From the NCBI GenBank assembly GCA_900315665.1, contig OMZX01000018.1, positions 1-35,428 of the forward strand: DNA of 35,428 bases, written 5' to 3'. Shown in pieces: positions 20,792-35,428 of the stretch. Position numbers and translations under genes: made by a program. This DNA comes from an uncultured Eubacteriales bacterium. GTDB lineage: Bacteria; Bacillota; Clostridia; Lachnospirales; Lachnospiraceae. The stretch's first letter is position 1. Every line of letters begins with the position of its first letter. Under the pieces are notes generated by a model. The model did not search any database. It had not been told where the DNA came from and saw only the letters and a list, made by a program, of their open reading frames with translations.

Positions 20792-22354
20792 ATGGAACTA
20801 TTAATAAACCTGGGAGGCACTGACGATACGTTTCTTATTCGTTGGTTTCTGCTGCTCATCGTCGGTACTGTCATCGTGACCGTCATCGCCGGTCTCTGTC
20901 TCACCCGCTGGCGCTGGAAGCTGCACCGCGTGTACTTCCTCGTGGTGCTTTGGTTCGGCCTGTTCTATATGGCCGTTTTCTCGCCACTTTCCGCGCCCGA
21001 CGAAGTCGTCCATTTCGTGACCGCTTACGAGCTTTCTGATCGTCTAATGCTTACACCAGCGCGCGACAGTGATGATCATATCCGGATCCGTGCAGAGGAT
21101 GAATATATCGTGAACTGGCCCGGGGACAATGACCCGACGAAGGCCACAGTTCTTGGTATGACACTTGACCGCGCAGTGTATGAAGAACTCCATGAACATG
21201 GACTTTTCAAGATGACCCGTCAGGGCATGGATGTGACCTGGCAGGTACCGGCGGTGACAACACCGCTCGCGTATCTGTGCCCTGCTGTAGGCATTAGCCT
21301 CGCAAGACTTCTCCATATGAGCTGCTTCGGGCTTCTCTTTATGGGGCGGCTCATGAATCTTCTGCTGTTTACGATTCTCGGGACACTTGCCGTGAAGCGC
21401 ATGCCCATCGGGCGGATGGTCGTTTTCGTGCTGTCGCTCTTCCCGATGACGCTCGAGCTTGCGGCGTCGTATTCCTATGACGCCTTTTTACTTCCGCTTG
21501 CCTTCACGCTGATTTCGGAGGTGCTCAGGCTTTCTTATACGGAGCGGGATATTCGGGTTTCTGACGCGGTACGGCTTTCCATCCTTGCTGTACTTTTGGC
21601 GCCCTGCAAGATGATCTATGCGACTCTTTTCCTGCTGTGCCTGATGATCGCACCGCGGAAATTCGGCAGTGATCACACTTATATTCGAAATTACATCCTT
21701 GCGATTCTTCTCATCGACGTCATGATCGTCGGTTCGATCCTTCTTGTTAACTTCCGCGAGTTCTTCCGCTATGTAAACACAACAGGCACCGTCGCGCCGG
21801 AGCTTGATTCCGAGGGCAATGTCCAGACGGTGGTTTACCACGACCTCATGGAGCTCGTCCGCGACAAAACGCTCATTTTCCGCGTGATCCGGAACTCCTT
21901 CCAGATCCTCGGCGGCGAATACCTCGGCACCACCGTCGGCATGTGGCTGTCCGCCATGGACCGAAGCCTCGGTGCACCAGTGTGGATGTGCATCCTCTTC
22001 TGGACACTCCTTCTTGTGGCGGCTATCGCACCGGACTACGATGAACCATCCCTCGGCATCACCCGCCGCCTGCTGATGCTTGCCACCGGCCTCCTGACCG
22101 GGCTGCTCCTTTTCGTCAGCATGTTCACCGCCTACACCCCGAAGGACACCTGGTATATCCTCGGCATCCAGGGCCGCTACTTCATCCCCTTCCTGCCACT
22201 GCTTTTACTCCCCTTCCACATTAGCGGCCGCCCCGCAGACCCAATCCTCCGCCGTATCCCGATAATCCAGGTGCAGAATGTGAGCATCATCCTATCCCTC
22301 TGCATGAATATTTATGTACTATGTACAAACTTTTTCACGATTATTAATCGTTAA
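20792..22354 (+). CDS. DUF2142 multi-span membrane protein
   Basis: A 520-residue protein with about 11 helices. After two N-terminal helices, SPLSAPDEVVHFVTAYELSDRL (residues about 65-86) carries the conserved PDE...H motif of DUF2142, and GIQGRYFIPFLPLLLLPF near the end is the second family landmark. The large loop after the first motif faces outside. DUF2142 proteins resemble GT-C glycosyltransferases and cluster with surface-polysaccharide genes; a lipid-sugar-dependent transferase or polymerase role is an inference. The ribosome binding site is weak. It stands alone, followed 15 bases later by a long palindromic element. Confidence 0.87.
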   Translation: MELLINLGGTDDTFLIRWFLLLIVGTVIVTVIAGLCLTRWRWKLHRVYFLVVLWFGLFYMAVFSPLSAPDEVVHFVTAYELSDRLMLTPARDSDDHIRIRAEDEYIVNWPGDNDPTKATVLGMTLDRAVYEELHEHGLFKMTRQGMDVTWQVPAVTTPLAYLCPAVGISLARLLHMSCFGLLFMGRLMNLLLFTILGTLAVKRMPIGRMVVFVLSLFPMTLELAASYSYDAFLLPLAFTLISEVLRLSYTERDIRVSDAVRLSILAVLLAPCKMIYATLFLLCLMIAPRKFGSDHTYIRNYILAILLIDVMIVGSILLVNFREFFRYVNTTGTVAPELDSEGNVQTVVYHDLMELVRDKTLIFRVIRNSFQILGGEYLGTTVGMWLSAMDRSLGAPVWMCILFWTLLLVAAIAPDYDEPSLGITRRLLMLATGLLTGLLLFVSMFTAYTPKDTWYILGIQGRYFIPFLPLLLLPFHISGRPADPILRRIPIIQVQNVSIILSLCMNIYVLCTNFFTIINR

Positions 22355-22368
22355 GAGTGTCACTGTCA

Positions 22369-22575
22369 GGAGGCTGACTGGAATTCCGTGCTGAGGGGCT
22401 TGGAGGGGCACCTGTACGAACATAAAGCCGAAAGTCCCAGCTAGCCGAGGGGCTCAGACGAGGTAAAAAATCGGTGCCCACAAGGCCCGATTTTTTAGGC
22501 CCTAGCGCTAGGACTTTCGAGCAGTGAGGAAGGTGCCCCTCCAAGCCCCTCAGCACGGAGTTCCAGTCAGCCTCC
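22369..22575. repeat. Long palindromic element, copy A (207 bp)
   Basis: Arms 22369-22413 and 22531-22575 pair over 45 bases with one mismatch. The interior starts GTACGAACATAAAGCCGAAA and ends TCGAGCAGTGAGGA. It also has an inner stem (CGAAAGTCC/GGACTTTCG) and a central hairpin AAAAAATCGG/CCGATTTTTT. It shares these blocks, in inverted orientation, with copies at 31568 and 35288. Its position right after the DUF2142 stop also makes it a possible terminator. Confidence 0.85.
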
Positions 22576-22604
22576 GTCCGGGAGTAGGAGAAATGAAAGA
22601 TTCG

Positions 22605-22613
22605 TGTTATACT
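22605..22613 (+). promoter_or_regulatory. Extended -10 promoter of the ABC export permease
   Basis: TGTTATACT (TGn plus TATACT), 24 bases upstream of the ATG at 22637. The -35 region is poor. Confidence 0.45.
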
Positions 22614-22636
22614 AACGGTCATTGGAGTGAACGCAA

Positions 22637-23452
22637 ATGAAAAATCTGATTTTACTGATCCGGGCAATCATCGCGAAGCGCCGGATGATATGGGACCTCG
22701 CGAAGGCCGACTTCCGGAAGCGCTTCGTCGGGTCATACTTCGGCATCATCTGGATGTTTGTCCAGCCGCTCGTGACCGTCTTGATCTATGCAGTGATCTT
22801 CGGCCCGTACGGCTTTAAATCCGCACCGCCGGTTCCGAACACAAGCTATGTGATCTGGCTGATCCCCGGCCTCGTGCCATGGTTCTACTTTTCCGAAAGC
22901 ATGACCCAGCTTACGGGCATCCTCCAGGAATACAACTACCTCGTAAAAAAGGTGGTGTTCCCGGTGGAGCTTCTTCTCATCATCAAGCTCGTGAGCTGCT
23001 TCTTCGTGCATTTCTGCTTCGTCATCATCATGCTGATCGCCTACCTCATATCCGGCCGCATGCCGATGCCAACCTGGATTCAGATCCTGTATTACAGCCT
23101 CTGCGCATCGGTACTCGCGCTCGGCATCGGTTACTTCACGAGTGCCGTCAATGTATTTTTTAAGGATATGCAGACAATCGTAGGCATTGCGATTCAGTTC
23201 GGCATCTGGCTGTGCCCGATTATGTACGACGAGACGCTGTTTACATCCCGCGCGCCGTGGGTCGGGACTGTGCTGAAGATCAACCCGTTTTACTACATCG
23301 TAGCGGGTTATCGTGATTCCATGCTGACGGGCCACTGGTTTTTCGAACGCCCGGGGCTGAGCCTGTACTTCTGGGCTGTTTCGCTTTGCCTTCTTTTCAT
23401 CGGCCTCGCCTTCTTTAAGCGCGTCCGGCCGCACTTTTCGGATGTACTGTAG
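22637..23452 (+). CDS. ABC-2 type polysaccharide export permease (Wzm/TagG-like)
   Basis: A 271-residue permease with six helices. IWDLAKADFRKRFVGSYFGIIWMFVQPLVTVLIYAVIFG at the N-terminus is the classic ABC-2 polysaccharide exporter signature (cytoplasmic helix then helix 1), and GLVPWFYFSESM, VKKVVFPVELL and INPFYYIVAGYRDSML also fit. It would form the channel for an undecaprenyl-linked glycan or teichoic-type polymer. The ATPase (Wzt/TagH) that normally follows is absent: the next genes are plsC and pheA. It must use an ATPase encoded elsewhere or be a remnant. GGAGTG precedes the ATG. Confidence 0.94.
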   Translation: MKNLILLIRAIIAKRRMIWDLAKADFRKRFVGSYFGIIWMFVQPLVTVLIYAVIFGPYGFKSAPPVPNTSYVIWLIPGLVPWFYFSESMTQLTGILQEYNYLVKKVVFPVELLLIIKLVSCFFVHFCFVIIMLIAYLISGRMPMPTWIQILYYSLCASVLALGIGYFTSAVNVFFKDMQTIVGIAIQFGIWLCPIMYDETLFTSRAPWVGTVLKINPFYYIVAGYRDSMLTGHWFFERPGLSLYFWAVSLCLLFIGLAFFKRVRPHFSDVL

Positions 23453-23465
23453 GCCAATTTTTTAG

Positions 23466-23539
23466 TATAATGCTTCCTTCCGTAAAGCCGGTTGCTCTGC
23501 GACTGGGTGAGGCTTACTTCCGGATGGCTTCCTGAAGGA
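23466..23539 (+). promoter_or_regulatory. Possible promoter and structured leader of plsC
   Basis: A perfect TATAAT (23466-23471) begins 14 bases after the permease stop; no good -35 is present. The following leader can fold: TCCTTC (23475) with GAAGGA (23534), CCG with CGG, and GTAAAGCC with GGCTTAC. The fold does not cover the plsC ribosome binding site. Confidence 0.35.
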
Positions 23540-23563
23540 GGCATTGGAAAAAGGAGAAATTTT

Positions 23564-24325
23564 ATGCTGTATGCGATTCATGGTTTTCTGGTGGCGTTTT
23601 TCTTTCTGCTTTACGGCTATTTTCTGGTGCCGAAGGTGAAATCTATCAAGGACGATCGGGAGCGGACGATGTATGCGCTCAAGATCGTACAGAGCAAGCT
23701 GCGCCGGATTCTTAAGGTTTGCAAAGTGAAGTATGATGTCGAGGGAATGGAAAACCTCACCAGCATCCCGAAGGATGAGGGTGTGATGTTTGTCGGAAAT
23801 CATCGCTCCTATTTCGATGTGATTCTTGGCTATACGCTTGTGGACCGGCCGACCGGCTTCGTCGCGAAAACCGAGATGCAGAAGGTAAAGCCGCTTGCCA
23901 TGTGGATGGAGTTTTTACACTGTCTGTTCATCGATCGAGACAATTTGAAGCAGTCTCTTAAGGTGATTTTACAGGCGATCCAATATGTGAAGAAGGGTAC
24001 GTCTATCTGGATCTATCCGGAGGGCACCCGCTCGAAGGGTGAGAGCGAGGAGGATATGCTTCCCTTTAAGGAGGGCTCGTTCAAAATTGCCGAGAAGACC
24101 GGCTGCAAGATCATTCCCGTCGCGATGATCAATACGCGGAAGATCTGGGAGGCGCAGTTCCCGAAGGTAAAGCCTAACCAGCATGTACGCGTTATGATCG
24201 GGAAGCCGATCACCGTTTCTGATATCCCGGAGGAGGAGCGAAAGCACGTCGGGGAATATGTTGAGAACATCGTTCTCGAGGAAATCCGGGAGCTGAAAAA
24301 GAAGGATGTTGCGGAGGAAAAATGA
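23564..24325 (+). CDS. plsC: 1-acyl-sn-glycerol-3-phosphate acyltransferase
   Basis: A 253-residue membrane-bound enzyme that acylates lysophosphatidate to phosphatidate in phospholipid synthesis. One N-terminal helix (about 4-22) anchors it. The catalytic HX4D motif is NHRSYFDV (His80, Asp85); the acceptor-phosphate motif is IYPEGTRSKG, and FKEGSFKIA and IIPVAM follow as expected. Start: ATG 23564 with AAGGAG 7 bases upstream. Its stop directly abuts the pheA start, so the two are co-transcribed, an odd functional pairing. A role for another acyl acceptor cannot be excluded because lysophospholipid acyltransferase paralogues share these motifs. Confidence 0.93.
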   Translation: MLYAIHGFLVAFFFLLYGYFLVPKVKSIKDDRERTMYALKIVQSKLRRILKVCKVKYDVEGMENLTSIPKDEGVMFVGNHRSYFDVILGYTLVDRPTGFVAKTEMQKVKPLAMWMEFLHCLFIDRDNLKQSLKVILQAIQYVKKGTSIWIYPEGTRSKGESEEDMLPFKEGSFKIAEKTGCKIIPVAMINTRKIWEAQFPKVKPNQHVRVMIGKPITVSDIPEEERKHVGEYVENIVLEEIRELKKKDVAEEK

Positions 24326-25483
24326 ATGGATGCGAAGGCAGCAGGCAAAGGAATGTCACTTCTTGAAATCAGAGATCAGCTGGATGTCATTGACAGACAG
24401 CTTACGTCGCTCTATCAGGAGCGCATGGAATACTGCGCGGAGGTCGCGAACATTAAGATAAAAAGTGGAAAGCAGGTGCTCGACGCGAAGCGGGAACAGG
24501 AGAAGCTCGCCGCGGTCGAGAGCTTCGTCGAGAGTGACTTTGACAAGAAGGCGGTACGCGAGCTGTTTTCCCAGATTATGACGATTTCGAGACGCCTTCA
24601 GTTTGGCATCATGACAGAAAACGGGCTTTCCTTTGATATCGGGTTTCAAAAGACGTCCTGCATCCCGGTTGAGGGAAAGAAAGTCGTTTATCAGGGCGTG
24701 CCGGGGGCCTATGCTCATATTGCCGCACTCAGAAGCTTCCCGGAGGGAACAGAGCTTTTTCATGTGAAAACCTGGAAGGATGCACTTGATGAGGTCGCAG
24801 AAGGTAAGGCGGACTATGCCGTGCTGCCAATCGAAAATTCCTCACACGGCGCTGTCACGGATAACTTCGACCTGCTACTTCGCTATCCAACGCTTGCTAT
24901 CGTGCAGGAAATTGACCTCCCGGTACAGCATGCACTTCTTTCGGTAGAAGGCGCAGATATCAAAGGACTCAGGGAGGTATACAGCCACCCGCAGGCCATC
25001 GGCCAGTGCCAGCATTTCTTCGAGACACACCCGTATATCACCCCGGTTTCGGTATTGAACACAGCCGTCGCGGCAGAGCTCGTGTCGGAACGTCAGGACA
25101 AAACCATCGCAGCGCTTTCCTCCGAAGAAGCCGGAAGACTCTATCACCTGTCCGTACTCGAACACGCCGTAAACCAGGAAAAAACCAATACCACCCGCTT
25201 CCTCATCCTCGGCCGGGAGAAAATCTACACCGATGAGGCCACGAAAACCTCCATCTGCTTCGAGACCCAGCATAAGCCCGGTGCACTCTATAACGTCCTT
25301 GGAAACTTCATCTTCAACGACGTCAACATGATCATGCTCCAGTCCCGCCCCATCCCCGAAAAACCCTTCGAATACCGCTTCTTCTGCGACATAGAAGGAA
25401 ACCTCGCAACCCCTAAAATCATCAACGCCCTGAACGGCATGCACACCGAAGTCACAGAATTCAGGATTTTAGGCTGCTACTAA
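24326..25483 (+). CDS. pheA: Bifunctional chorismate mutase / prephenate dehydratase (P-protein)
   Basis: A 385-residue cytoplasmic enzyme converting chorismate to prephenate and then phenylpyruvate for phenylalanine synthesis. Residues about 10-95 are an AroQ-type chorismate mutase (IRDQLDVIDRQL...ERMEYCAEVANIK), about 113-298 the prephenate dehydratase (YQGVPGAYAH, PIENSSHGAV, NTTRFLIL with the catalytic Thr-Arg-Phe), and about 308-380 the ACT regulatory domain. The ACT motif usually written ESRP reads QSRP here. In known enzymes this motif takes part in phenylalanine binding, so feedback may be altered; this is inference. GGAGGA lies about 7 bases upstream. Translation is probably coupled to plsC. 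Confidence 0.96.
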   Translation: MDAKAAGKGMSLLEIRDQLDVIDRQLTSLYQERMEYCAEVANIKIKSGKQVLDAKREQEKLAAVESFVESDFDKKAVRELFSQIMTISRRLQFGIMTENGLSFDIGFQKTSCIPVEGKKVVYQGVPGAYAHIAALRSFPEGTELFHVKTWKDALDEVAEGKADYAVLPIENSSHGAVTDNFDLLLRYPTLAIVQEIDLPVQHALLSVEGADIKGLREVYSHPQAIGQCQHFFETHPYITPVSVLNTAVAAELVSERQDKTIAALSSEEAGRLYHLSVLEHAVNQEKTNTTRFLILGREKIYTDEATKTSICFETQHKPGALYNVLGNFIFNDVNMIMLQSRPIPEKPFEYRFFCDIEGNLATPKIINALNGMHTEVTEFRILGCY

Positions 25484-25490
25484 AACAAAT

Positions 25491-25519
25491 TTGCTTTTCT
25501 ACACATAAAATAATAAAAT
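25491..25519 (+). promoter_or_regulatory. Promoter of the two-component/ABC operon
   Basis: TTGCTT (25491-25496), 17-base spacer, TAAAAT (25514-25519), start near 25526. It lies just after the pheA stop, in an AT-rich 73-base gap. Confidence 0.6.
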
Positions 25520-25556
25520 TGATGTCAGAGTTGAAAAACCAAAAGGAGAGTTCCCT

Positions 25557-26258
25557 ATGGCACAGGTTAATATCTTAGTTGTAGATGATGAGAAGGAAAT
25601 CGCCGACCTCGTCGAGATTTATCTCGTAAGCGACGGCTATAAAGTATTTAAGGCATATAACGCACAGGACGGACTTAAAATTCTCAATGAAGAAGAGATT
25701 CATCTCGTTCTTCTCGACATCATGATGCCCGGTATGAACGGCCTCGAGATGTGCAAGAAGATTCGTGAAAAATCAAATATTCCGGTCATCATGTTGTCTG
25801 CGAAGTCCACAGATCTCGACAAGATCATGGGCCTCACCGGCGGCGCCGATGATTACGTGACGAAGCCCTTTAACCCGCTCGAGCTCACAGCCCGTGTGAA
25901 ATCTCAGCTTCGCCGCTACACCCAGCTGAACCCGAACGCCACCTCCGGCATCACCGGAAACGAAATCACGATCCGCGCGATGACCATCAACAAGGATAAC
26001 CACAAGGTCACCATCGACGGCGAAGACATCAAGCTGACCCCGATTGAGTTCGACATCCTCTACCTCCTTGCCTCCCACCCCGGCAAGGTCTTCTCCACGG
26101 ACGAAATCTTTGAGAAGGTTTGGAACGAAAAGGTTTACGAAGCCAACAATACCGTCATGGTCCACATCCGCCGCCTCCGCGGCAAGATGCGCGAGGATGA
26201 ACGTGAGGACAAGATCATCACGACAGTTTGGGGTGTCGGCTATAAGATTGAGAAATAA
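25557..26258 (+). CDS. OmpR/PhoB-family response regulator (VanR-like)
   Basis: A 233-residue DNA-binding regulator. The receiver domain (1-120) has the acidic pair Asp10/Asp11, phospho-acceptor Asp54 in VLLDIMMPGM, and the conserved Lys in DDYVTKPF. The C-terminal winged helix (about 130-232) shows LTPIEFDILYLLASHPGKVFS and a recognition helix around NNTVMVHIRRLRGK. It is likely phosphorylated by the kinase encoded immediately downstream (stop and start overlap by one base). Probable targets include its own operon. AAGGAG precedes the ATG. Confidence 0.96.
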   Translation: MAQVNILVVDDEKEIADLVEIYLVSDGYKVFKAYNAQDGLKILNEEEIHLVLLDIMMPGMNGLEMCKKIREKSNIPVIMLSAKSTDLDKIMGLTGGADDYVTKPFNPLELTARVKSQLRRYTQLNPNATSGITGNEITIRAMTINKDNHKVTIDGEDIKLTPIEFDILYLLASHPGKVFSTDEIFEKVWNEKVYEANNTVMVHIRRLRGKMREDEREDKIITTVWGVGYKIEK

Positions 26259-27445
26259 TGGACGAGAAAAAGGACAATCGCGGAACCGAACATAACTCCG
26301 GCCGGGGCTACATGCTCCGGCTCCTTTCGCATATTGTCATCGCAACCGTGGTCACTTTGATTCTCGAGGTTTTCCTCGTCACAAACGTCACGAGCATCTC
26401 CGGCTATCTTTACCAAACCGGAAACGATTCACTCGCCGTGCAGCGCTTCGCGTTTGGTTCGACTGTCAGCGTTCTCCTTTTTGTCTTCCTCGGCATCCTG
26501 ATCTTCGCGGTGATCCTGCTGCTTCTTCAGCGGCGGACAGCCCGTGATATTGAGTCCATCCGCCGCGCCGTCGAGCAGATTTCGGACGGCGATCTCACGA
26601 CGAAGCTTGAGGTCAGTGAGGACAGCGAGTTTACAAACATCGCGGCAAACATCGGCCGTATGGAAAACGATATCCGGGCGCTCATTGAAAAGGAGCGGAC
26701 CGCCGAACAATCAAAGACCGACCTCATCACGAATGTTGCCCATGATCTTCGGACACCGCTTACCTCAATCCTCGGCTATCTGGATCTGCTTCGCAAAAAG
26801 AAAAATCTCTCTCCGGAGATGCGGCAGAAATATGTCGACATCGCCTATCAGAAATCGCAGCGCCTGCAGAAGCTCATCGAAGAACTGTTCGGCTTCACGA
26901 AGCTTAGCTACGGCCATGTCAACCTGAACATTAAGGAGCTTGATATCGTCGAGCTCGTGGCACAGCTTCTCGAGGAAAGCTATCCGAATTTTGCGAAAAA
27001 CGGCTTAAGTTATGAGTTCATTTCCAGCAAGGATCATCAGACCATCGAAGCGGATGCCGATCTCCTTGCACGTCTTTTTGATAATCTCATCAACAACGCG
27101 ATCAAATACGGCAAGGAAGGAAAGCGCGTAAATGTCCGCCTCCGGACCGATCAGGATTCTGTCACCGTGAAGATCGTAAACTACGGCTATGTCATCCCCG
27201 AGAAGGAGCTGCCGCTCATTTTCGACAGATTCTACCGGACCGATCATTCCAGGACCAATGCTAACGGCCCGGGCGGTACCGGCTTAGGCCTTGCCATCGT
27301 GAAAAACATCACGGATATGCACCATGGCACCGTATCTGTTGCATCTGATCTTTCGGGTACCGTGTTTACTGTCAAACTGCCGATCCATTACGAAGAGGAA
27401 AAGGAGAAAGAGGATAGCCTTGAACAGGATGGAAAGAGAAAATAA
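26258..27445 (+). CDS. Sensor histidine kinase with HAMP domain (VanS-like)
   Basis: A 395-residue membrane kinase. Two helices (about 20-45 and 69-91) enclose an extracellular loop of only about 23 residues, too small for a classical ligand domain. HAMP is about 92-145, then the HisKA dimerisation helix with phospho-acceptor His162 in VAHDLRTPLTSILG, and the HATPase with N-box NLINNAIKYG and the glycine-rich PGGTGLGLAIV. A short sensing loop suggests detection within the membrane or through a partner, such as the large protein encoded next, which overlaps it by 17 bases. It shares one base with the response regulator gene (TAATG). Confidence 0.95.
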   Translation: MDEKKDNRGTEHNSGRGYMLRLLSHIVIATVVTLILEVFLVTNVTSISGYLYQTGNDSLAVQRFAFGSTVSVLLFVFLGILIFAVILLLLQRRTARDIESIRRAVEQISDGDLTTKLEVSEDSEFTNIAANIGRMENDIRALIEKERTAEQSKTDLITNVAHDLRTPLTSILGYLDLLRKKKNLSPEMRQKYVDIAYQKSQRLQKLIEELFGFTKLSYGHVNLNIKELDIVELVAQLLEESYPNFAKNGLSYEFISSKDHQTIEADADLLARLFDNLINNAIKYGKEGKRVNVRLRTDQDSVTVKIVNYGYVIPEKELPLIFDRFYRTDHSRTNANGPGGTGLGLAIVKNITDMHHGTVSVASDLSGTVFTVKLPIHYEEEKEKEDSLEQDGKRK

Positions 27446-29819
27446 AATAATGAGTTCCAGTGTGTTTACACTGCTCTTTTTTCTCATATTGACATGCCTT
27501 TTTTCGGTTCCGGCTTTTGCGGATACCATCGACCTCAGTGTCACCTACGGCTATCAGAATATTGCAAAGGCAGGCCGCTACCTGCCGCTTTCCATCACCA
27601 TCGAGAATACGGATTCGAAAACCTTTTCCGGCCTCATTCACGTTTACATGGTGGAATCAAAAAACAGTGTCTATGAATATCAGTATCAGAAAACCGTAGA
27701 GGGCGAATCCTCGGATGTTCTGCCGGTGACAGTTTCACTTAGTGCGGGTATCAATCAGATTCTCGTGACAGCGGAGGATCGTGATGGCATCGTACAGGGC
27801 ACGAAGCGAATCGGACTTGATGTAGCCGGTTCAGATGCAGAGCTTATCATTGGACTCCTTTCCGCCAATGCTGACGCGCTTTCATATATGAATGATATCA
27901 GCATGCGGGACGGTATCCTTCGGACGCGGACTGTCGCACTGGATCCGGAGAAGCTGCCGTCGGATGAAACGGCACTTGACCAGCTTGATATCCTCTGTAT
28001 CTCCGACTATACGATGTCCGACATGAAGGAGAATGAAGCAGAAGTCATCCGTCGCTGGATCGACCGGGGCGGCGTGCTGATGCTTGGCACCGGCGCGCTT
28101 GGACAAAAGGCAGTGGAGCCGTATTTTTCTTCCTATCTTCGGGAGGAGCTTGTGCCACGGCTTGCGACACTTGATCCGTCACTTTTTGATGAAGGCAATG
28201 AGAGCAACACGAGTAATGAAGCCTTAAAGCTTATGGCGGCTTCCCTTTCTGTACAGGATGGGCAGGAGCTTTTTGTCGAGGATGGTGAGCCGCTGCTTTC
28301 GGCTGTTGCTGTCGGCGCAGGCCGGATCGTCTTCAGCGGCTTCGATTTTTGTGATATCGAGCGTTATGCTACCGAAAATACAGATTTTGTGGATCAACTC
28401 TTTACAGCAGTGCTCGGTGAAGGGAGGCTCGAACAGCTTTCTGTTTCCGCCTCGGAGAAATCCTTGAAGCAGTACTGGGATATTCAGGAGGTTATGAATA
28501 TGACGGACCTCCGGAAGATTCCACGCCCGGAGCTCTATCTGCTTGTGCTTCTTGTGTATGTTCTGCTCATTGGCCCGGTGCTCTACAGCTATCTTCGTGC
28601 GCATGAGCTGCTTCGGATGTACCGCTCGATGGTCATACTGACTGCTGTTTTCTGCACCGTCATTGTGTATATGATGAGCATGTCGACGCGCTTCAGCGGC
28701 ACTTTCGTGAACTATGTGCGCCGTCTTGATATTTCCGAGCAGAGCGTGGATGAAACAGACTTCATCAATGTCCGTTCGCCGTATCGCGAGACCTATGGCA
28801 TTCCTGTTCGTACCGAGTATTATGTGTATCCGGTTCTCAAGGGCTCGGACTATACCGGCGATATTCAGAATCTTCTTTCAGAGGGGCAGGATTATGCCCA
28901 CACCACCATCGATAATGGCCGTGAGAAAACCAGTATTACAGTAGAAAATACAGAACCCTTCACAGCGCGTTATTTTGAGCTTGATAACAAGATGCCGAAC
29001 ACGATCGGGAGCTTCGACAGTGATTTCCGGGAGTCAGAGGGACAGCTCAAGGGCACGCTTACAAACAACACCGGCTACACGCTTTCTGATGCGGCGTTGA
29101 TTCTGTATGGACGTATCATCCGGCTTGACCGGCTGGAAAACGGCCAGACGGTAGATATCGCGGGCATCGCGCAGGAGATGGTTCCGATTGGCGATGCGGA
29201 CAAGATCGCTATGCGTGTGACGCAGGGTAGCGGCAGAAAGTTTCTTCGGTATTATCTTCAAAATGAACTCGCCGGTTATTTCTCCGGCGCCCGGCTTGTC
29301 GGCTTCCTTCGGGAGGATACAGCGGATTTCACGACGGACACGGCAATCGAGCAGTACGGCATCACGATGGCGGTTGCGTCACTTCCGGTTTCCGGTCCTT
29401 CAGATGGCGTGACGATTCGAAATGCGCTATCGACCGATCCAACCATCGTATCCGGAGGCTTCGATATTGAAACAAACACCATTGCCTCCATGAGCCCGAC
29501 AGTGCTGGCTTATCACTTCGGTGAGACGAATGTCGTCGATGCAATCTCCATCGAAAGCCTGTCCGAGGATGCCTTAAACAACGCTGACAGCATCCGGCAG
29601 GTCCTTCCCTTTAGAGGCTCCTTAAGCTTCCTCAATCAGAAAACAGGCGGCTTCGACGTCATCGATGTCGGTGACGGGCAGTTTGACAGTACAGCGCTTT
29701 CTGACTATCTAAGCAACCAGAATACCCTGACGGTGCGATATGCACCGGAGGATAATCGCGGCAGCATCAGCACACGTCTGTATCTTCCGGTTATGACCGT
29801 CACGAGTCATACAGCCTGA
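27429..29819 (+). CDS. Large secreted/membrane accessory protein of an ABC system (GldG-like arrangement)
   Basis: A protein of about 796 residues. A signal peptide ends at AFA before DTIDLS (residue 31). Residues about 32-365 are extracellular and include a segment like a degenerate glutamine-amidotransferase fold (RRWIDRGGVLMLGTGALG and GAGRIVFSGFDF). Two helices follow (about 368-390 and 398-420), then a second extracellular part of about 375 residues. I do not recognise a named family. Its place between a sensor kinase and an ABC ATPase/permease pair suggests an accessory subunit, comparable in layout to GldG-type proteins. The start is uncertain: ATG 27429 gives a charged n-region, ATG 27450 is the alternative; neither has a strong ribosome binding site. 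Confidence 0.8.
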   Translation: MERENKIMSSSVFTLLFFLILTCLFSVPAFADTIDLSVTYGYQNIAKAGRYLPLSITIENTDSKTFSGLIHVYMVESKNSVYEYQYQKTVEGESSDVLPVTVSLSAGINQILVTAEDRDGIVQGTKRIGLDVAGSDAELIIGLLSANADALSYMNDISMRDGILRTRTVALDPEKLPSDETALDQLDILCISDYTMSDMKENEAEVIRRWIDRGGVLMLGTGALGQKAVEPYFSSYLREELVPRLATLDPSLFDEGNESNTSNEALKLMAASLSVQDGQELFVEDGEPLLSAVAVGAGRIVFSGFDFCDIERYATENTDFVDQLFTAVLGEGRLEQLSVSASEKSLKQYWDIQEVMNMTDLRKIPRPELYLLVLLVYVLLIGPVLYSYLRAHELLRMYRSMVILTAVFCTVIVYMMSMSTRFSGTFVNYVRRLDISEQSVDETDFINVRSPYRETYGIPVRTEYYVYPVLKGSDYTGDIQNLLSEGQDYAHTTIDNGREKTSITVENTEPFTARYFELDNKMPNTIGSFDSDFRESEGQLKGTLTNNTGYTLSDAALILYGRIIRLDRLENGQTVDIAGIAQEMVPIGDADKIAMRVTQGSGRKFLRYYLQNELAGYFSGARLVGFLREDTADFTTDTAIEQYGITMAVASLPVSGPSDGVTIRNALSTDPTIVSGGFDIETNTIASMSPTVLAYHFGETNVVDAISIESLSEDALNNADSIRQVLPFRGSLSFLNQKTGGFDVIDVGDGQFDSTALSDYLSNQNTLTVRYAPEDNRGSISTRLYLPVMTVTSHTA

Positions 29820-29833
29820 TAAGGAGGCGGACA

Positions 29834-30802
29834 ATGCTTCTATTTGAAAATGTTTATAAGTCCTACGGGCACCGGCAGGCACTTGACAATTTCAATCTCC
29901 GTATCCACGACGGTGCGATGTTCGGCCTGATCGGGCCGAATGGCGCAGGGAAGACGACGGTGATCACGCTTCTTGCAGGACTGATTCTTCCGGATCAGGG
30001 TACCATCCGGATCGATGATATGGATGCCGGTGACAGGATTCGGCGTCTTCGGAAACGAATCGGCTATGTGCCGGCGGAATCCGGCATGATCCCGAATCTG
30101 AAGGTTTTCGAGTATATGTCATTTTTCGCAAACTGCTATGATCTGTCCGGTGCGAAGGTTTACCGGCGTATGCAGCAGCTTCTGGATACGGTGGGACTTC
30201 TGGACCGAGGCAATCAGTATGTGGATACGCTTTCACCGGGGCAGCAGAAGAAGCTGTCTCTTGCCCGGGCACTCCTGCAGGATCCGAAATATCTTCTTCT
30301 GGATGAGCCGCTTGCCGGACTTGACCCGCAGAACAGCTATGATTTCCGTCAGGTCATCGCGAATATGGCGGATAGTGGAAAAACAATCGTCATCACCTCA
30401 CACGTTCTTTCAGACATCGCCGATCTTTGCACCGATGTAGGCATTATGGATAAGGGAAAGATCGTGCTGGAGGGCGAGATGGATACGGTGCTTGAAGAAG
30501 TGAATCAGTCTAATCCGATCATCATTTCGATGGAGAGTGGTATGGCCCCGGCGGTCCGGATTCTCCGGGATAATCCGTGCGTTAAATCAGTCAGCATCCG
30601 GAATCGTGAGGTGTTGATCGGCTTTAATGGCACGTCGGACGATGAGACAGCGCTTCTGAGAAGCCTCGTGGAGAAGGGCATCCCGGTGCGTTCCTTCCAT
30701 CGTGAAAAGGGAAATTTCGAAGCGGTGTTTATGAAGCTGACGGGAAATGAAGAGAGGAGGGTGACGTCGTATGAAGCTGAATCCGATTTATCGGAGGGAT
30801 GA
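29834..30802 (+). CDS. ABC transporter ATP-binding protein
   Basis: A 322-residue ATPase of the ABC-2/drug-export class. Walker A GPNGAGKTT (residues about 35-43), Q-loop region IGYVPAESGMIP, signature LSPGQQKKLSLARAL (a LSPGQ variant), Walker B LLLDEPLAGLDP and H-loop ITSHVLSD are all intact, so it should hydrolyse ATP. About 80 C-terminal residues beyond the nucleotide-binding domain resemble the extension of CcmA-type ATPases. AAGGAGG sits before the ATG, 14 bases after the preceding stop. It overlaps the permease gene by 32 bases. Confidence 0.96.
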   Translation: MLLFENVYKSYGHRQALDNFNLRIHDGAMFGLIGPNGAGKTTVITLLAGLILPDQGTIRIDDMDAGDRIRRLRKRIGYVPAESGMIPNLKVFEYMSFFANCYDLSGAKVYRRMQQLLDTVGLLDRGNQYVDTLSPGQQKKLSLARALLQDPKYLLLDEPLAGLDPQNSYDFRQVIANMADSGKTIVITSHVLSDIADLCTDVGIMDKGKIVLEGEMDTVLEEVNQSNPIIISMESGMAPAVRILRDNPCVKSVSIRNREVLIGFNGTSDDETALLRSLVEKGIPVRSFHREKGNFEAVFMKLTGNEERRVTSYEAESDLSEG

Positions 30803-31562
30803 GCTGACAGGAACGCGAAGCCTTTCCCTTCCGCTTCTCATCACCTTGCTCAATGCCGGCCTCTCGATTCTTGTGCTGATCAATCTTTTTTATGTGACAG
30901 CGGACGCGGGTGTGACAGGGGAGATTTCATACGGGAATTTTCTTCGGATCTACTATTATGCTGCCGGAATCGAGTATTTTGCACTTCTCATGATGGCGCC
31001 GGTGCTGACGGCGTCGTCGATTACGCTTGAGAAGGAGCGGAAGACCCTGGGGCTTCTTCTTACGTCGCAGCTATCACCGCGGGAGATTATCCGTGGCAAG
31101 CTTTTCAGCGCACTGAGCCTTCTTTTCGAGACATTTGTGACAGCGCTGCCGATTCTCGCGACGGTGAGTATTTTCGGCGGGGTAACGTGGCTCGAGCTGC
31201 TGGTAGCGGTTCTCGTGACGGCAGTGAGCCTTTTTTATGCGTCATCGGTTGGGATCCTTACGAGTGCGCGGCTTCATACGACGACGTCTGCGACGGCGGC
31301 GGCGTATATCGCGGTGCTGGGGTCGATGGCGGTGTTTTTCTTAGGGCTGTATGCGGCGCGGTTTTTGCCGGCGTATGCGGCGTGGGTGCTGCCGGGGGAG
31401 CTTATGCTGATGGTGGTGCTGTCGTTCGTTTTTCTGGAGATTGCGGAGAGGAGTCTTCTGCCGCGGCGCAGGCATGTCGCTGTTCACGCAGCGCCGCCGG
31501 ATGAGTCGGAACCGGAGGATACCGAGCCTGATGCAACTACGGCACGGGCTTCGAAGAAGTGA
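30771..31562 (+). CDS. ABC-2 type permease
   Basis: A 263-residue permease with six predicted helices and the ABC-2 landmark ITLEKERKTLGLLLTSQLSPREIIRGKL (residues about 83-110), where the coupling helix meets the ATPase. The C-terminal 35 residues are hydrophilic and rich in Pro, Glu and Asp. It pairs with the preceding ATPase, whose gene it overlaps by 32 bases; AGGAGG lies inside the ATPase gene. With the large protein upstream it forms a three-part export or membrane-remodelling system; substrate unknown. It ends the five-gene operon, and a 316-bp palindrome begins 5 bases after its stop. Confidence 0.93.
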   Translation: MKLNPIYRRDELTGTRSLSLPLLITLLNAGLSILVLINLFYVTADAGVTGEISYGNFLRIYYYAAGIEYFALLMMAPVLTASSITLEKERKTLGLLLTSQLSPREIIRGKLFSALSLLFETFVTALPILATVSIFGGVTWLELLVAVLVTAVSLFYASSVGILTSARLHTTTSATAAAYIAVLGSMAVFFLGLYAARFLPAYAAWVLPGELMLMVVLSFVFLEIAERSLLPRRRHVAVHAAPPDESEPEDTEPDATTARASKK

Positions 31563-31567
31563 CGCCG

Positions 31568-31883
31568 AAAACCTGCCTGAACGGGGCACCCCTGTGGCGG
31601 TTCCAGTCGGGCTGAGGGACTCGGAGGGGCACCCTAGCTCACGCTCGAAGGTCTAATCGCTATCCAGCCACGCCGAACTGGGCCGGCCCGATTCTGGAAA
31701 ATTTCTGAAGAAATTTTCCGCCAGCGGGCCTAAAAATCAGGGGCCAGGGTGAGCCCCTGATTTTAACCCTGTCCGTCGTGGCTGGCTAGCGAAGACCTTC
31801 GGCTTTATGTTCGTACGGGTGCCCCTCCGAGTCCCTCAGCCCGACTGGAACCGCCACAGGGGTGCCCCGTTCAGGCAGGTTTT
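31568..31883. repeat. Long palindromic element, copy B (316 bp)
   Basis: This fills most of the 517-base gap before udk. Arms 31568-31634 and 31817-31883 are perfectly complementary over 67 bases, ending in a T-run, so the transcript could end here. Inside are stems around GAAGGTCT / AGACCTTC and CCAGCCACG / CGTGGCTGG, and two hairpins: GGAAAATTTCT/AGAAATTTTCC (31696-31719) and AAAATCAGGGGC/GCCCCTGATTTT (31732-31764). GGGCCGGCCC and GGGCCTA flank the first hairpin, as in the copy at 35288. Its minus strand carries GTACGAACATAAAGCCGAA at the same place as copy A. Confidence 0.9.
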
Positions 31884-31902
31884 TGGCTGTGTTTTGACTG
31901 CG

Positions 31903-31940
31903 AAAGCTGACACCGGGGACGGTTCTCTCTGTCAGCTTTT
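31903..31940. repeat. REP-like hairpin repeat, single copy
   Basis: AAAGCTGACACC at the left, GGGGACGGTTCTCTC core, TGTCAGCTTTT at the right; same family as the copies in the glycan island. It is unpaired here and lies 20 bases after palindrome B. Confidence 0.85.
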
Positions 31941-31985
31941 GACTGGTTTTTGGCAGCGGGACTAGTTATTTCTGCGTGTATAGGA

Positions 31986-32021
31986 TATAATTTCGAACTA
32001 GAATCTGCTGGCGCAGATTCT
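31986..32021 (+). promoter_or_regulatory. udk promoter -10 box and leader hairpin
   Basis: TATAAT (31986-31991) has no good -35. A perfect 9-bp hairpin, AGAATCTGC/GCAGATTCT with loop TGGC (32000-32021), would lie at the very 5' end of the transcript. It may protect the 5' end or regulate; no known riboswitch is recognised. Confidence 0.45.
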
Positions 32022-32079
32022 GTGGAGATGTGTGGTGCTTTTGCCACAATGCGACTGCTTGCGAAAAGAGGAGGGCGGC

Positions 32080-32697
32080 ATGAGCTGTATCATGATCGGG
32101 ATCGCCGGGGGTTCTGGGTCCGGCAAGTCGACGTTTACGAACAGGTTGAAGAAGGAGTTTGGGGATCAGGTTACGGTCATCTATCATGATAACTATTATA
32201 AGTCGAATGATGGTATTCCGTTTGAGATCCGGCAGAAAGAGAATTATGATCATCCGGATGCGTTTGAGACGGATCTTCTGATCACGCATCTGAAGGCGCT
32301 TCGCCGTGGTGAGACGGTGCAGTGTCCGGTCTATGATTATTCGCAGCATAATCGGACGGATCAGACGATCGAGCTGAAGCCGTCCAGGATCATCATCGTC
32401 GAAGGTATCCTGGTGCTTGAGAATCCGGAGCTTCGTTCGCTTTTTGATATCAAGATTTATGTCGAGGCTGATGCGGATGAGCGAATCATCCGCCGTATCA
32501 TCCGTGATGTAAAGGAGCGTGGCCGTCATATCGAAGACATCTCTGACCAGTACCTGACGACAGTAAAGCCAATGCATTACCTCTACGTCGAGCCGACGAA
32601 GGCGCTTGCCGATATCGTAATAAATTCAGGTATGAATGATGTCGCATTCGACCTGATGCGGACGAAGATTCAGAGTCTGCTGGATGCTACTAGCTGA
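32080..32697 (+). CDS. udk: Uridine kinase
   Basis: A 205-residue cytoplasmic kinase that phosphorylates uridine and cytidine with ATP or GTP in pyrimidine salvage. P-loop GIAGGSGSGKST (residues 7-18), YHDNYYKS, ENYDHPDAFETDLL, PVYDYSQHNRT and IVEGILVL are the canonical Udk motifs. Length matches the family. Start: ATG 32080 with GAGGAGGG about 5 bases upstream. An 18-base gap to thrC indicates an operon. Confidence 0.96.
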   Translation: MSCIMIGIAGGSGSGKSTFTNRLKKEFGDQVTVIYHDNYYKSNDGIPFEIRQKENYDHPDAFETDLLITHLKALRRGETVQCPVYDYSQHNRTDQTIELKPSRIIIVEGILVLENPELRSLFDIKIYVEADADERIIRRIIRDVKERGRHIEDISDQYLTTVKPMHYLYVEPTKALADIVINSGMNDVAFDLMRTKIQSLLDATS

Positions 32698-32715
32698 CTG
32701 AAAGGAGACTAAATT

Positions 32716-34215
32716 ATGGTTTATAACAGCACGCGTGGCGGCGAGACGAACCGTACGGCAAGCGAGGCGATCCTGGAGGGGCTCTGCAGTGATGGCGGGC
32801 TTTTCATGCCGGATCATATTCCGACGTTTGAGAGGCCTGTCGTCGAGTTGAAGGACATGAGCTATCAGGAACTCGCGTACGAGGTCATGAAGCTTTACTT
32901 TACGGATTTCACGGAGGAGGAGCTCCGGCACTGTATTGATGCAGCCTATGATGAAAAATTTGACACGAAGCTGATCGCGCCGCTTGTGAAGAAGGACAAT
33001 GCTTACTTCCTGGAGCTTTTCCATGGGAAGACGATTGCCTTTAAGGATATGGCGCTTTCGATTCTGCCGCATCTCATGGTCACGAGTGCGAAGAAGAATA
33101 ACGTCAAGGATAAGATTGTGATTCTGACAGCAACATCTGGTGATACGGGGAAGGCTGCGATGGCGGGCTTCTCTGATGTCTCGGGCACAGAGATCATCGT
33201 GTTCTATCCGTATGGCGGTGTCTCTCGTTTCCAGGAGCTGCAGATGCGGACGGAGCCGGGGTGGAACACGCATGCAGTGGCAATCCGGGGCAATTTCGAT
33301 GATGCGCAGACCGGAGTCAAGCGGATTTTCGGCGATACTGCGTTCCGCGAGCATCTTCGGGAGACTGCCGGTGTGCGGCTGTCCTCTGCAAACTCGATTA
33401 ATATCGGACGTCTGGTGCCGCAGATTGTGTATTATGTTTATTCGTATTGTCAGCTGCTCCGGAGCGGTGAGATTGCACTGGGCGAAGGCATTAACGTATG
33501 TGTACCGACCGGTAATTTCGGCAATATTCTTGCGGCGAAGCTTGCAAAGGAGATGGGGCTTCCGGTGAAGAAGCTGATCTGTGCGTCGAATGAGAACAAG
33601 GTGCTGACGGATTTCTTCGGGACGGGTGTTTATAATCGTGAGCGACCGTTTATTCTGACGACGAGTCCGTCCATGGATATTCTGATTTCGTCGAATCTTG
33701 AGCGGCTTCTGTACTTTACTGTTGATCAAGACACCAAAGAGGTGCAGGCGCTGATGGAGGCATTGGCGGAAAAAGGGGAGTATCGGATCACGGATGGTAT
33801 GCGGGCACACATGCAGGATTTCTATGGTGGCTTCGCGAAGGAAGAGGCGGTGGCCGGGACGATCAAGGCGCTTTTTGATAAGACGGGCTATGTGATCGAT
33901 CCGCACACGGCGGTGGCAAAGACGGTGTATGATGCGTACGTGAAGGAGACCGGCGACATGACAAAGACGGTGATTGCGTCGACGGCGAGTCCCTTTAAGT
34001 TTGCGCCGTCTGTCATCTCGGCGCTCGGCGGCAATGGGAATCTCGATGATGTGTTTGCGGTGATTGATATGCTGTCAGAGAAGGCTGGTGTCAAGGAGCC
34101 GGCTGCTGTCAGCGAGGTCCGCACGGCGCAGATCCGCCACAACACGATCTGCGAGCTCAAGGACATGGAAGATGTGACCGAGGAGTTCTTGATCGAGGAT
34201 CGGGAAAAATTCTGA
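32716..34215 (+). CDS. thrC: Threonine synthase
   Basis: A 499-residue PLP enzyme that converts O-phosphohomoserine to threonine. The PLP lysine is Lys110 in TIAFKDMAL; TATSGDTGKAA and NFGNILAAKLAKEMG bind the cofactor phosphate and substrate. The N-terminus YNSTRGGETNRTASEAILEGL is typical of the longer, yeast/E. coli-type threonine synthases found in clostridia. AAAGGAG precedes the ATG. It appears co-transcribed with udk. No T-box or threonine attenuator was seen upstream. Confidence 0.97.
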   Translation: MVYNSTRGGETNRTASEAILEGLCSDGGLFMPDHIPTFERPVVELKDMSYQELAYEVMKLYFTDFTEEELRHCIDAAYDEKFDTKLIAPLVKKDNAYFLELFHGKTIAFKDMALSILPHLMVTSAKKNNVKDKIVILTATSGDTGKAAMAGFSDVSGTEIIVFYPYGGVSRFQELQMRTEPGWNTHAVAIRGNFDDAQTGVKRIFGDTAFREHLRETAGVRLSSANSINIGRLVPQIVYYVYSYCQLLRSGEIALGEGINVCVPTGNFGNILAAKLAKEMGLPVKKLICASNENKVLTDFFGTGVYNRERPFILTTSPSMDILISSNLERLLYFTVDQDTKEVQALMEALAEKGEYRITDGMRAHMQDFYGGFAKEEAVAGTIKALFDKTGYVIDPHTAVAKTVYDAYVKETGDMTKTVIASTASPFKFAPSVISALGGNGNLDDVFAVIDMLSEKAGVKEPAAVSEVRTAQIRHNTICELKDMEDVTEEFLIEDREKF

Positions 34216-34251
34216 AATCTCAAGGTTTCTATGGTAAATGATGGAAGAGTA

Positions 34252-34260
34252 TGTTAAACT
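34252..34260 (+). promoter_or_regulatory. Possible extended -10 promoter of fba
   Basis: TGTTAAACT (TGn plus TAAACT) lies 48 bases before the fba start in a 93-base AT-rich gap; the -35 region is weak. Confidence 0.4.
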
Positions 34261-34308
34261 ATTCACAGTGTCATTTCAAAAGATATTTTCAATAGGAGGA
34301 TAATATCT

Positions 34309-35175
34309 ATGTTAGTTAATGCTAAGGAAATGCTTGACAAGGCTTTAGCCGGTCATTATGCTGTTCCACAGTTCAATATCAACGATCTCGAGTGGACGAA
34401 GTCGGTACTGACTGCCTGTGAGGAGGAGAAGTCTCCGGTTATTCTCGGTGTATCGATGGGTGCCGGTAAGTATATGGGCGGCTTCAAGACAGTTGCTGCG
34501 ATGGTAAAGGCGATGGATGCTTCGCTTGGTATCACGGTTCCGGTTGCTCTGCATCTTGATCATGGTACCTATGATGGTTCCTATGCATGTATCGAGGCTG
34601 GCTTTACTTCCATCATGTTCGATGGTTCTCACTATGATATCGATGAGAATGTCGAGAAGACGAAGGAGCTGGTTTCTGCTGCGCATCATCTTGGCCTTTC
34701 TATCGAGGCTGAGGTCGGTGGTATCGGCGGCACGGAGGATGGTGTGACGAGCTCCGGTGAGAAGGCAAATCCTGACGACTGTAAGAGAATTGCAGATCTT
34801 GGTGTAGACTTCCTGGCTGCCGGCATTGGCAACATCCATGGTGTTTATCCGCCAGATTGGGAAGGTCTTGATTTTACAGTACTTGCTGCCATCAAGGATA
34901 AGATTGGTGCGGATCTTCCGCTGGTTCTGCATGGTGGTTCCGGTATCCCGGAGGATCAGATCAAGAAGGCGATTTCTCTTGGCGTTTCGAAGATCAATGT
35001 TAACACTGAGCTCCAGATCGTATTTGCAAAGGCTACGAGAGCTTATATCGAGGCTGGCAAGGATCAGCAGGGTAAGGGGTATGATCCTCGTAAGCTGCTG
35101 GCGCCGGGCGCGCAGGCTATCATCGATGAGTGCAAATCCAAGATTGCAGTATTTGGCTGCGCTGGGAAGGCTTGA
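34309..35175 (+). CDS. fba: Class II fructose-1,6-bisphosphate aldolase
   Basis: A 288-residue Zn2+-dependent glycolytic enzyme splitting fructose-1,6-bisphosphate to DHAP and glyceraldehyde-3-phosphate. HLDHGTYD (82-89) supplies the catalytic Asp84 and Zn ligand His85; EAEVGGIGG, GIGNIHGVYP and LVLHGGSGIPE give the other metal and phosphate ligands, and KINVNTELQ completes the family pattern. GGAGG precedes the ATG. Codon use is plainer and AT-richer at third positions than in neighbours (frequent GGT, GTT, CTT), as expected for a highly expressed gene. A strong terminator follows. Confidence 0.97.
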   Translation: MLVNAKEMLDKALAGHYAVPQFNINDLEWTKSVLTACEEEKSPVILGVSMGAGKYMGGFKTVAAMVKAMDASLGITVPVALHLDHGTYDGSYACIEAGFTSIMFDGSHYDIDENVEKTKELVSAAHHLGLSIEAEVGGIGGTEDGVTSSGEKANPDDCKRIADLGVDFLAAGIGNIHGVYPPDWEGLDFTVLAAIKDKIGADLPLVLHGGSGIPEDQIKKAISLGVSKINVNTELQIVFAKATRAYIEAGKDQQGKGYDPRKLLAPGAQAIIDECKSKIAVFGCAGKA

Positions 35176-35201
35176 TTCAATTTTATATTTTGGTGTTTAC
35201 G

Positions 35202-35230
35202 CCGCCGCGGGTTCCCGCGGCGGTTTTTTT
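35202..35230 (+). terminator. Intrinsic terminator of fba
   Basis: CCGCCGCGG (35202-35210) and CCGCGGCGG (35215-35223) form a perfect 9-bp GC stem with loop GTTC, followed by seven T. Confidence 0.92.
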
Positions 35231-35287
35231 GTTGTGTGGGGCTTTCGTGGGAAGGTTGTGAAGCCGTGGAGGTTTGCCGTCGGGGTC

Positions 35288-35428
35288 GGAGGGGCACGCT
35301 CCTCACTGCTCGAAAGTCCTAGCGCTATTCGGGTGCTCCAGTCGGGCCGGCCCAATTCAGGAAAAGCCTTGAAGGGGCTTTTCCTTCAATGGGCCTAGAA
35401 AATCCGGGGTTGTAACCCGGATTTTCTA
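35288..35428. repeat. Long palindromic element, copy C, cut by the window edge
   Basis: It begins GGAGGGGCAC, then CTCCTCACTGCTCGAAAGTC and CTAGCGCTA, nearly identical to the minus strand of copy A. Next come GGGCCGGCCC, a hairpin AGGAAAAGCC/GGCTTTTCCT, GGGCCTA, and a hairpin GAAAATCCGGG/CCCGGATTTTC, in the order of copy B. The right arm lies outside the window. Confidence 0.8.

Follow-up and report, generated by a model that had tools for sequence, protein, structure and literature searches.

How can the two arms of a long palindrome go on pairing when their sequence is nearly private to each copy? The question is raised by three elements (A, B and C) in the window analysed here, a stretch of 35,428 nucleotides that constitutes contig C113 of a 2.45-Mb, 121-contig Lachnospiraceae genome (the source genome, G000). 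The first-pass annotation of this window quoted stems that differ among the three elements and still pair, and these are present as quoted. It took such conserved pairing as the mark of selection on folding, and offered a structured RNA, a mobile miniature element or an elaborate terminator as possible identities. The fixed order that it described for the shared sequence blocks is found once element A is reverse-complemented, not as the window is read, and the left arm of element C begins at 35263 rather than at 35288. The features are listed here, with a slash marking an element border.

22369..22575, minus strand: element A, whole; border CCCGGAC/G...C/TGACAG on the minus strand
31564-31887, plus strand: element B, whole; arms of 71 bp with one mismatch allowed
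31564..31634, plus strand: element B, left outer arm; border GTGAC/G
31635..31649, plus strand: element B, asymmetric internal loop, left side with the first bases of the stem, TAGCTCACGCTCGAA
31642..31801, plus strand: element B, conserved core as in the R1 model (inner stem and two-hairpin fork)
31685..31730, plus strand: element B, tip hairpin a, GGCCCG...CGGGCC
31731..31766, plus strand: element B, tip hairpin b, TAAAAATCAGGGGC...GCCCCTGATTTTAA
31802..31816, plus strand: element B, asymmetric internal loop, right side, GCTTTATGTTCGTAC
31817..31887, plus strand: element B, right outer arm, mirroring the left; border C/TGTGTTTTG
35263..35428, plus strand: element C, left arm followed by part of its head, interrupted by the contig end

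Element B starts one base past the stop codon of an ORF (30771-31562) and contains perfect 67-bp arms (31568-31634 and 31817-31883). Its loop motif GTACGAACATAAAGCCGAA occurs at 25 places in the source genome with three or fewer mismatches, compared with 1 for the control. Folded as RNA, positions 31560-31890 reach -273.2 kcal/mol (z -25.6), and none of 100 shuffled sequences was equally stable; the stretch containing element A (22366-22575) has a z of -17.1, with 0 of 200 shuffles equally stable. Element A has its head reversed and is without one of the two tip hairpins. The remainder of element C lies at G000:C40:1-168, with the mirror arm at C40:132-168, and the start of that contig overlaps the window end exactly over 81 bases. 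The window also carries a GC-rich hairpin with a T run (35178-35231) between a fructose-bisphosphate aldolase gene and element C, which has a weak, sub-cut-off match to ncS54 in Rfam and resembles an ordinary terminator. When the site of element B was compared with eight intergenic stretches of congeners in search of an empty site, these were too diverged; by eye they were without the giant palindrome.

The source genome carries about 50 copies of a dispersed family, among them elements A and B and half of element C. A BLAST search with element B gave at least 46 matches (40 of 63 candidates scored). The first-pass annotation had proposed a covariance model as the way to further copies, and such a model, built on 30 cores (R1), found many: at least 87 matches on the two strands together, from 150 scored candidates out of 719, corresponding to 51 places that include the two halves of one copy. 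The additional source-genome copies that R1 brought up were examined by inspection alone. R1 matched none of the other 16 genomes in the genus, 12 of which have a completeness of 90% or more. Across the family it matched 6 of 397 genomes, the source genome and five others, and among 392 genomes sampled from the order, those five not included, the source genome was the single match; both searches used strict filters under which weak matches are lost. The five other genomes have 41 (G268), 13 (G101), 9 (G376, of which 7 were retrieved), 4 (G062) and 4 (G130) matches. Their copies differ from element B in sequence, and those that were folded share its architecture of a long outer stem, small asymmetric loops, an inner stem and a two-hairpin fork. 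Kinship across genera is argued from the R1 matches, the architecture and the borders, not from sequence identity. Loci L101, L106 and L111, which lie near contig ends, share element frames.

None of 4227 Rfam families reached its gathering score on the window, and none came near the cut-off on 22300-35428, in agreement with the earlier statement that no known family matches. Among six element loci, the one sub-cut-off match on an element was to MIR1437 (at L099:2042-2312, with 81.7 bits where the cut-off is 168), which we read as an effect of the long hairpin. A glmS ribozyme match above its gathering score lies near one element copy (L022:912-1063). An exact-pattern scan returned 43 stretches, of which L067 and L068 were folded, plus four viral ones, without such a palindrome; the remaining 41 were treated as chance because of their scattered taxa. 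One later viral match was likewise without a palindrome, and phages and plasmids gave no match to the one source-genome copy used as a query. A literature search judged by titles and abstract openings, with subscription papers and preprints outside it, found nothing on this family, which leaves its absence from the literature unproven.

The elements are roughly 200-430 bp long and consist of outer arms enclosing a conserved, asymmetric core with a forked tip. Arms were counted in 41 of 45 source-genome sequences (42 loci plus A, B and C), after dropping the two halves of C (L005 and wC) and the truncated L026 and L040. They are GC-rich and 25-99 nt long (median 55). Their sequence is nearly private to the copy, and yet the two arms pair almost without mismatch; about ten copy pairs share short arm stretches. 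Some cores are about 95% alike while the arms around them are private. When ten arms with few mismatches were compared with the source genome, eight had no other match at E<=0.01 (one of these had a weak 23-base match, E 0.09), the exceptions being L007 and L011, whose arms carry a terminator hairpin present elsewhere in the genome. The borders are conserved as well: 21 of the 41 copies, and one more in reversed orientation, have the dinucleotides AC...TG, compared with 0.4 on average and at most 2 in a border-shift control. Nineteen of the 41 copies have GGAC at the end of the left border, where the majority string is ...TTTTTGGCTATGCGGAC, and in these 19 the T-rich majority TGTTTTTT opens the right border. 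By eye, AC/G...C/TG borders are also found in copies from G268, G101, G130 and G062/G376, in some cases on the other strand.

Some copies have further structure. Six share all or part of a tip module of about 100 nt with hairpins of its own (GACATCGCAAGCGATGTC ... CGCGCAAGCGCGG), and its presence in copies with differing outer arms and loop subtypes suggests exchange of tips among copies.

G000, copies with the tip module: C76:66623, C52:155884, C16:1642, C62:50718, C84:8436 (L014), C104:33642

In G268, more hairpin units, also repeated (AAGGCATTTTCGAAAATGGCTTCACCCTTTA...), follow the palindromes at L120-L122 and lie between them, and in three loci of that genome palindromes form inverted pairs about 0.9 kb apart.

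One explanation for arms that change and still pair is that each copy is transcribed into a structured RNA, or into several, whose pairing selection maintains through compensatory mutation. Covariation, which the first-pass annotation had proposed to test, is strong and favours this. In the alignment of 30 source-genome cores (A1; the other 11 of the 41 were omitted for indels, Ns or damaged cores), 27 pairs changed on both sides, compared with a mean of 12.8 in shuffled alignments, none of 500 of which was as high; the count of further pair types was unexceptional (42 against 39.8 shuffled, with 113 of 500 as high). Also in favour of an RNA are the conservation of the asymmetric loops and tip and the core mismatches of the G268 copies, with 15 G.T to 7 A.C (26 were of other kinds). 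This G.T excess possibly reflects selection on folding of the tip, or strand-specific folding.

The outer arms behave otherwise. An RNA transcribed from one strand should favour one class of mismatch, and the balance of the two classes in the arms therefore speaks against RNA compensation: over the 41 copies, in an ungapped count, G.T and T.G together numbered 42, A.C and C.A 48, and other mismatches 21. This count supersedes an earlier source-genome pool (G.T 87, A.C 61, other 240) that included misaligned loops, and pooled mismatches for G268, G101 and G062/G376 were set aside since their copies are of mixed orientation. The arm mismatches are lopsided in another respect, with C.A and G.T totalling 62 against 28 for A.C and T.G; it looks as if the right arm had gathered more GC-to-AT changes, and we have no explanation for this.

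The copies in G268, whose outer arms reach about 140 nt and can be aligned along their length, allow the changes to be followed pair by pair. Its 41 R1 matches were delimited into 27 distinct copies, 19 of which entered an alignment (A2), the other eight being truncated, N-edged, diverged or offset. In these 19 copies, selected for a well-formed palindrome, 98.8% of cells are paired, and 73 pairs have changed on both sides, compared with 37.9 in shuffles and at most 23 with slid partners. Mean identity is 69% in the arms and 98% in the tip. The 25 outer-arm cells that are not Watson-Crick (G.T 9, A.C 11, other 5) again lack a wobble excess, and the 290 two-sided Watson-Crick cells of the outer arms comprise 128 transitions and 162 transversions (56%), a proportion of transversions among double changes that also argues against an RNA. 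Inner pairs show 15 transitions and 4 transversions. Insertions and deletions of 4, 7 and 11 nt are mirrored, a further difficulty for compensatory mutation. Among the 13 rows with outer-arm gaps, the same four pairs are absent on both arms in 7 and the same seven in 3; of the remaining three rows, one has gaps of 3+3, of which just 1 is in register, and each of the other two has one gap without a counterpart. Five rows carry an 11-nt block in both arms, and the other 14 lack it in both.

Concerted change can also be seen at one orthologous locus. Loci L047 and L048, from G062 and G376, are 90.4% identical over 3,151 bp, with 1-kb flanks that are 87 and 92% identical. Eight of 129 pairs differ between them, six of the eight on both arms and one from GC to TA, and 0 of the 46 unpaired positions differ. 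If the changes are placed independently on the two arms, the mean overlap is 0.38, and 6 was never reached in 20,000 trials. This comparison of a single locus excludes chance, not very strong compensatory selection, although two-sided change in six of eight pairs weighs against an RNA maintained in that way.

Host sequence can be mirrored, too. At L007, a gene identified as yebC by Pfam (YebC) ends in a stop codon followed by an intrinsic-terminator hairpin within the left arm, and the right arm holds this terminator again in inverted form (57 bp, zero mismatches). Among 15 congeners, yebC has its own hairpin and T run within 90 nt of the stop codon in 9 cases, 8 of them strong; these terminators have other sequences, and 6 of the 15 were without one by the same test. 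Because congeners have yebC terminators of their own, the left copy at L007 is probably native and the right one its mirror copy. A terminator is mirrored likewise at L011, downstream of a DctM transporter gene. At L013, a pair of similar hairpins lies outside the arms and contains mismatches. Mirroring of a host terminator counts against a structured RNA, as does the lack of an Rfam match at cut-off, and we judge that explanation rather unlikely. The pairing changes in the stems thus stand as described in the first-pass annotation, together with the family and its copies; taking them as the mark of selection on folding does not agree with the balanced mismatches, mirrored indels and mirrored terminator of the outer arms, which DNA copying explains better.

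The terminators mirrored in L007 and L011 also favour another possibility, that the arms are made once, when insertion duplicates the target flank in inverted orientation, and that copies later decay. Such an origin would suit arms that are nearly private to each copy around cores as much as 95% alike, and the finding that most arms tested are unmatched elsewhere. We consider it improbable all the same, because the conserved borders fall outside the private arms, the G268 arms can be aligned lengthwise among copies, and the ortholog arms changed in concert after insertion.

The position of element B next to a stop codon, together with the T-rich TGTTTTTT consensus after the hairpin in the 19 copies with GGAC borders, might point to elaborate intrinsic terminators, or to attenuators acting in both directions, at the ends of operons. 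The first-pass annotation had placed every element after an operon end; this is true of B in that it abuts a stop codon, and does not generalise. By crude strand calls for 38 of 41 copies, flanking genes are in the arrangements -- (14), -+ (9), +- (8) and ++ (7), so there is no bias to gene ends and 9 of the 38 copies lie between apparently divergent genes. The arms and forked tip also go far beyond a terminator's needs, which makes this a very improbable account of the family. An assembly or amplification artefact (inverted chimeras), which might be suspected from the contig break within C and N runs in a few copies, is scarcely credible given the mismatches in the arms, the differing flanks on the two sides of copies and the related repeats in the single-contig genomes G101 and G062.

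Two-sided changes that far outnumber mismatches, mirrored indels and a mirrored host terminator point to copying from arm to arm at the level of DNA. We therefore favour, as the likeliest explanation, a non-coding dispersed mobile element whose arms are kept mirrored by DNA copying of one onto the other. Replication or repair would bare a single strand, on which the conserved core would fold back, and a polymerase would then copy the opposite arm by a template switch, as in quasipalindrome-type correction. New bases, indels and bordering host DNA such as a terminator would in this way appear on both sides. The conservation of the asymmetric loops means that copying does not erase everything. 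Point mutation plus copying would give fewer transversions than the 162 of 290 seen in the G268 arms; set against the 15:4 ratio of inner pairs, this share means that blocks of the arms must also be replaced, from a source that we did not find. Long palindromes are attacked by SbcCD. A bolder form of the copying explanation, possible but doubtful, is a self-templating mobile DNA in which the forked core is a device or enzyme substrate for repeatedly rewriting the second arm from the first, so that every copy would hold a palindrome of its own that is constantly renewed, engulfing and mirroring host DNA in the process; transposition itself may then run by fold-back copying.

Of the identities offered in the first-pass annotation, the mobile miniature element is the best supported. 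The elements are short, non-coding and dispersed in many copies, as miniature inverted-repeat elements (MITEs) are, and are probably non-autonomous mobile DNA of a MITE- or REPIN-like kind, which we infer would be moved by a transposase acting in trans. Target-site duplications, which the annotation had also proposed to look for, were not found in the source genome or in G268, and do occur in a related subfamily. Type-2 copies of G062/G376 (L100, L102, L105, L108 and L115) have common terminal repeats with CAGGATAAACTTG... ends, and all five examined have 9-bp direct repeats at the border, two exact and three with one mismatch. The type-2 end sequence (CAGGATAAACTTGTAAACTT) is absent from viral contigs. 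The site of L102 holds a different element type in another species (L109, the same intergenic site within one genus), where the target stretch ACTCAAG occurs once.

No transposase was found beside copies among the 60 most recurrent ORFs listed from short flanks, all of which overlap elements and are frames inside them. A Y1 transposase was considered as the mover and rejected, as Y1 genes did not correlate with elements and several element-free congeners carry them; a search of 22 genomes for PF01797 showed no RAYT/Y1 link. The source genome has an IS200-like Y1 gene (G000:C26:166-522) whose 3' end is about 150 bp from copy L002, and a second, weaker PF01797 match on contig C11, which has no R1 copy.

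Several known repeats resemble this family in part. MITE copies normally have a common sequence, whereas the arms here are nearly private and change on both sides, and no parent transposon was found. The likeness to MITEs lies in small, non-coding, multi-copy elements with a stable stem-loop, as characterized in PMC10969869, and in the terminal inverted repeats and 9-bp direct repeats of the G062/G376 type-2 subfamily; MITEs are typically AT-rich according to the same text, in contrast to the GC-rich arms here. REPINs, the REP doublets of Pseudomonas, are dispersed miniature hairpin elements in which a less conserved stretch still pairs, and compensatory change in their hairpins has already been published (PMC3116915). 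As that source describes them, they carry a conserved 16-mer at either end, the first residues of the two lying 71 bp from each other, and are RAYT-linked, whereas the elements here are about 200-430 bp long, with a central conserved forked core, private arms and no RAYT link found. The REP/REPIN definition in PMC3733652 calls for a GTAG or CGTC tag at one end and stems of 5-13 bp, which borders of AC/G...C/TG and arms of 25-99 nt do not fit.

ERIC, YPAL, RPE, RUP and Correia/NEMIS are bacterial repeats that likewise form stem-loops and occur dispersed. They measure about 100-170 bp, and their terminal inverted repeats have 4-24 contiguous bp in the account excerpted from PMC2229807, compared with arms of 25-99 nt here, and in that excerpt we met no description of a forked core with private arms. 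A survey of 40 bacterial genomes reported 92 repeated stem-loop families, 67 previously undescribed (PMC2267715), among which the present family may or may not lie. The palindromes of Nematomorpha mitochondria, as described in PMC6649704, are long inverted repeats, perfect for the most part, which differ from species to species with arms staying identical, and template switching is proposed there as one possible mechanism; they lie within coding genes of the mitochondrion and do not form a dispersed family built on a common core. Since compensation in REPINs and concerted evolution of long arms are both published, the present family varies a known kind.

Covariation is widely taken as evidence of structured RNA; in this family it is very strong, and yet DNA copying is suggested. 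The family would thus serve RNA discovery both as a warning and as a control case. Rare and patchily distributed as these elements are, they may preserve, in the chromosomes of bacteria, a natural record of copying by fold-back.
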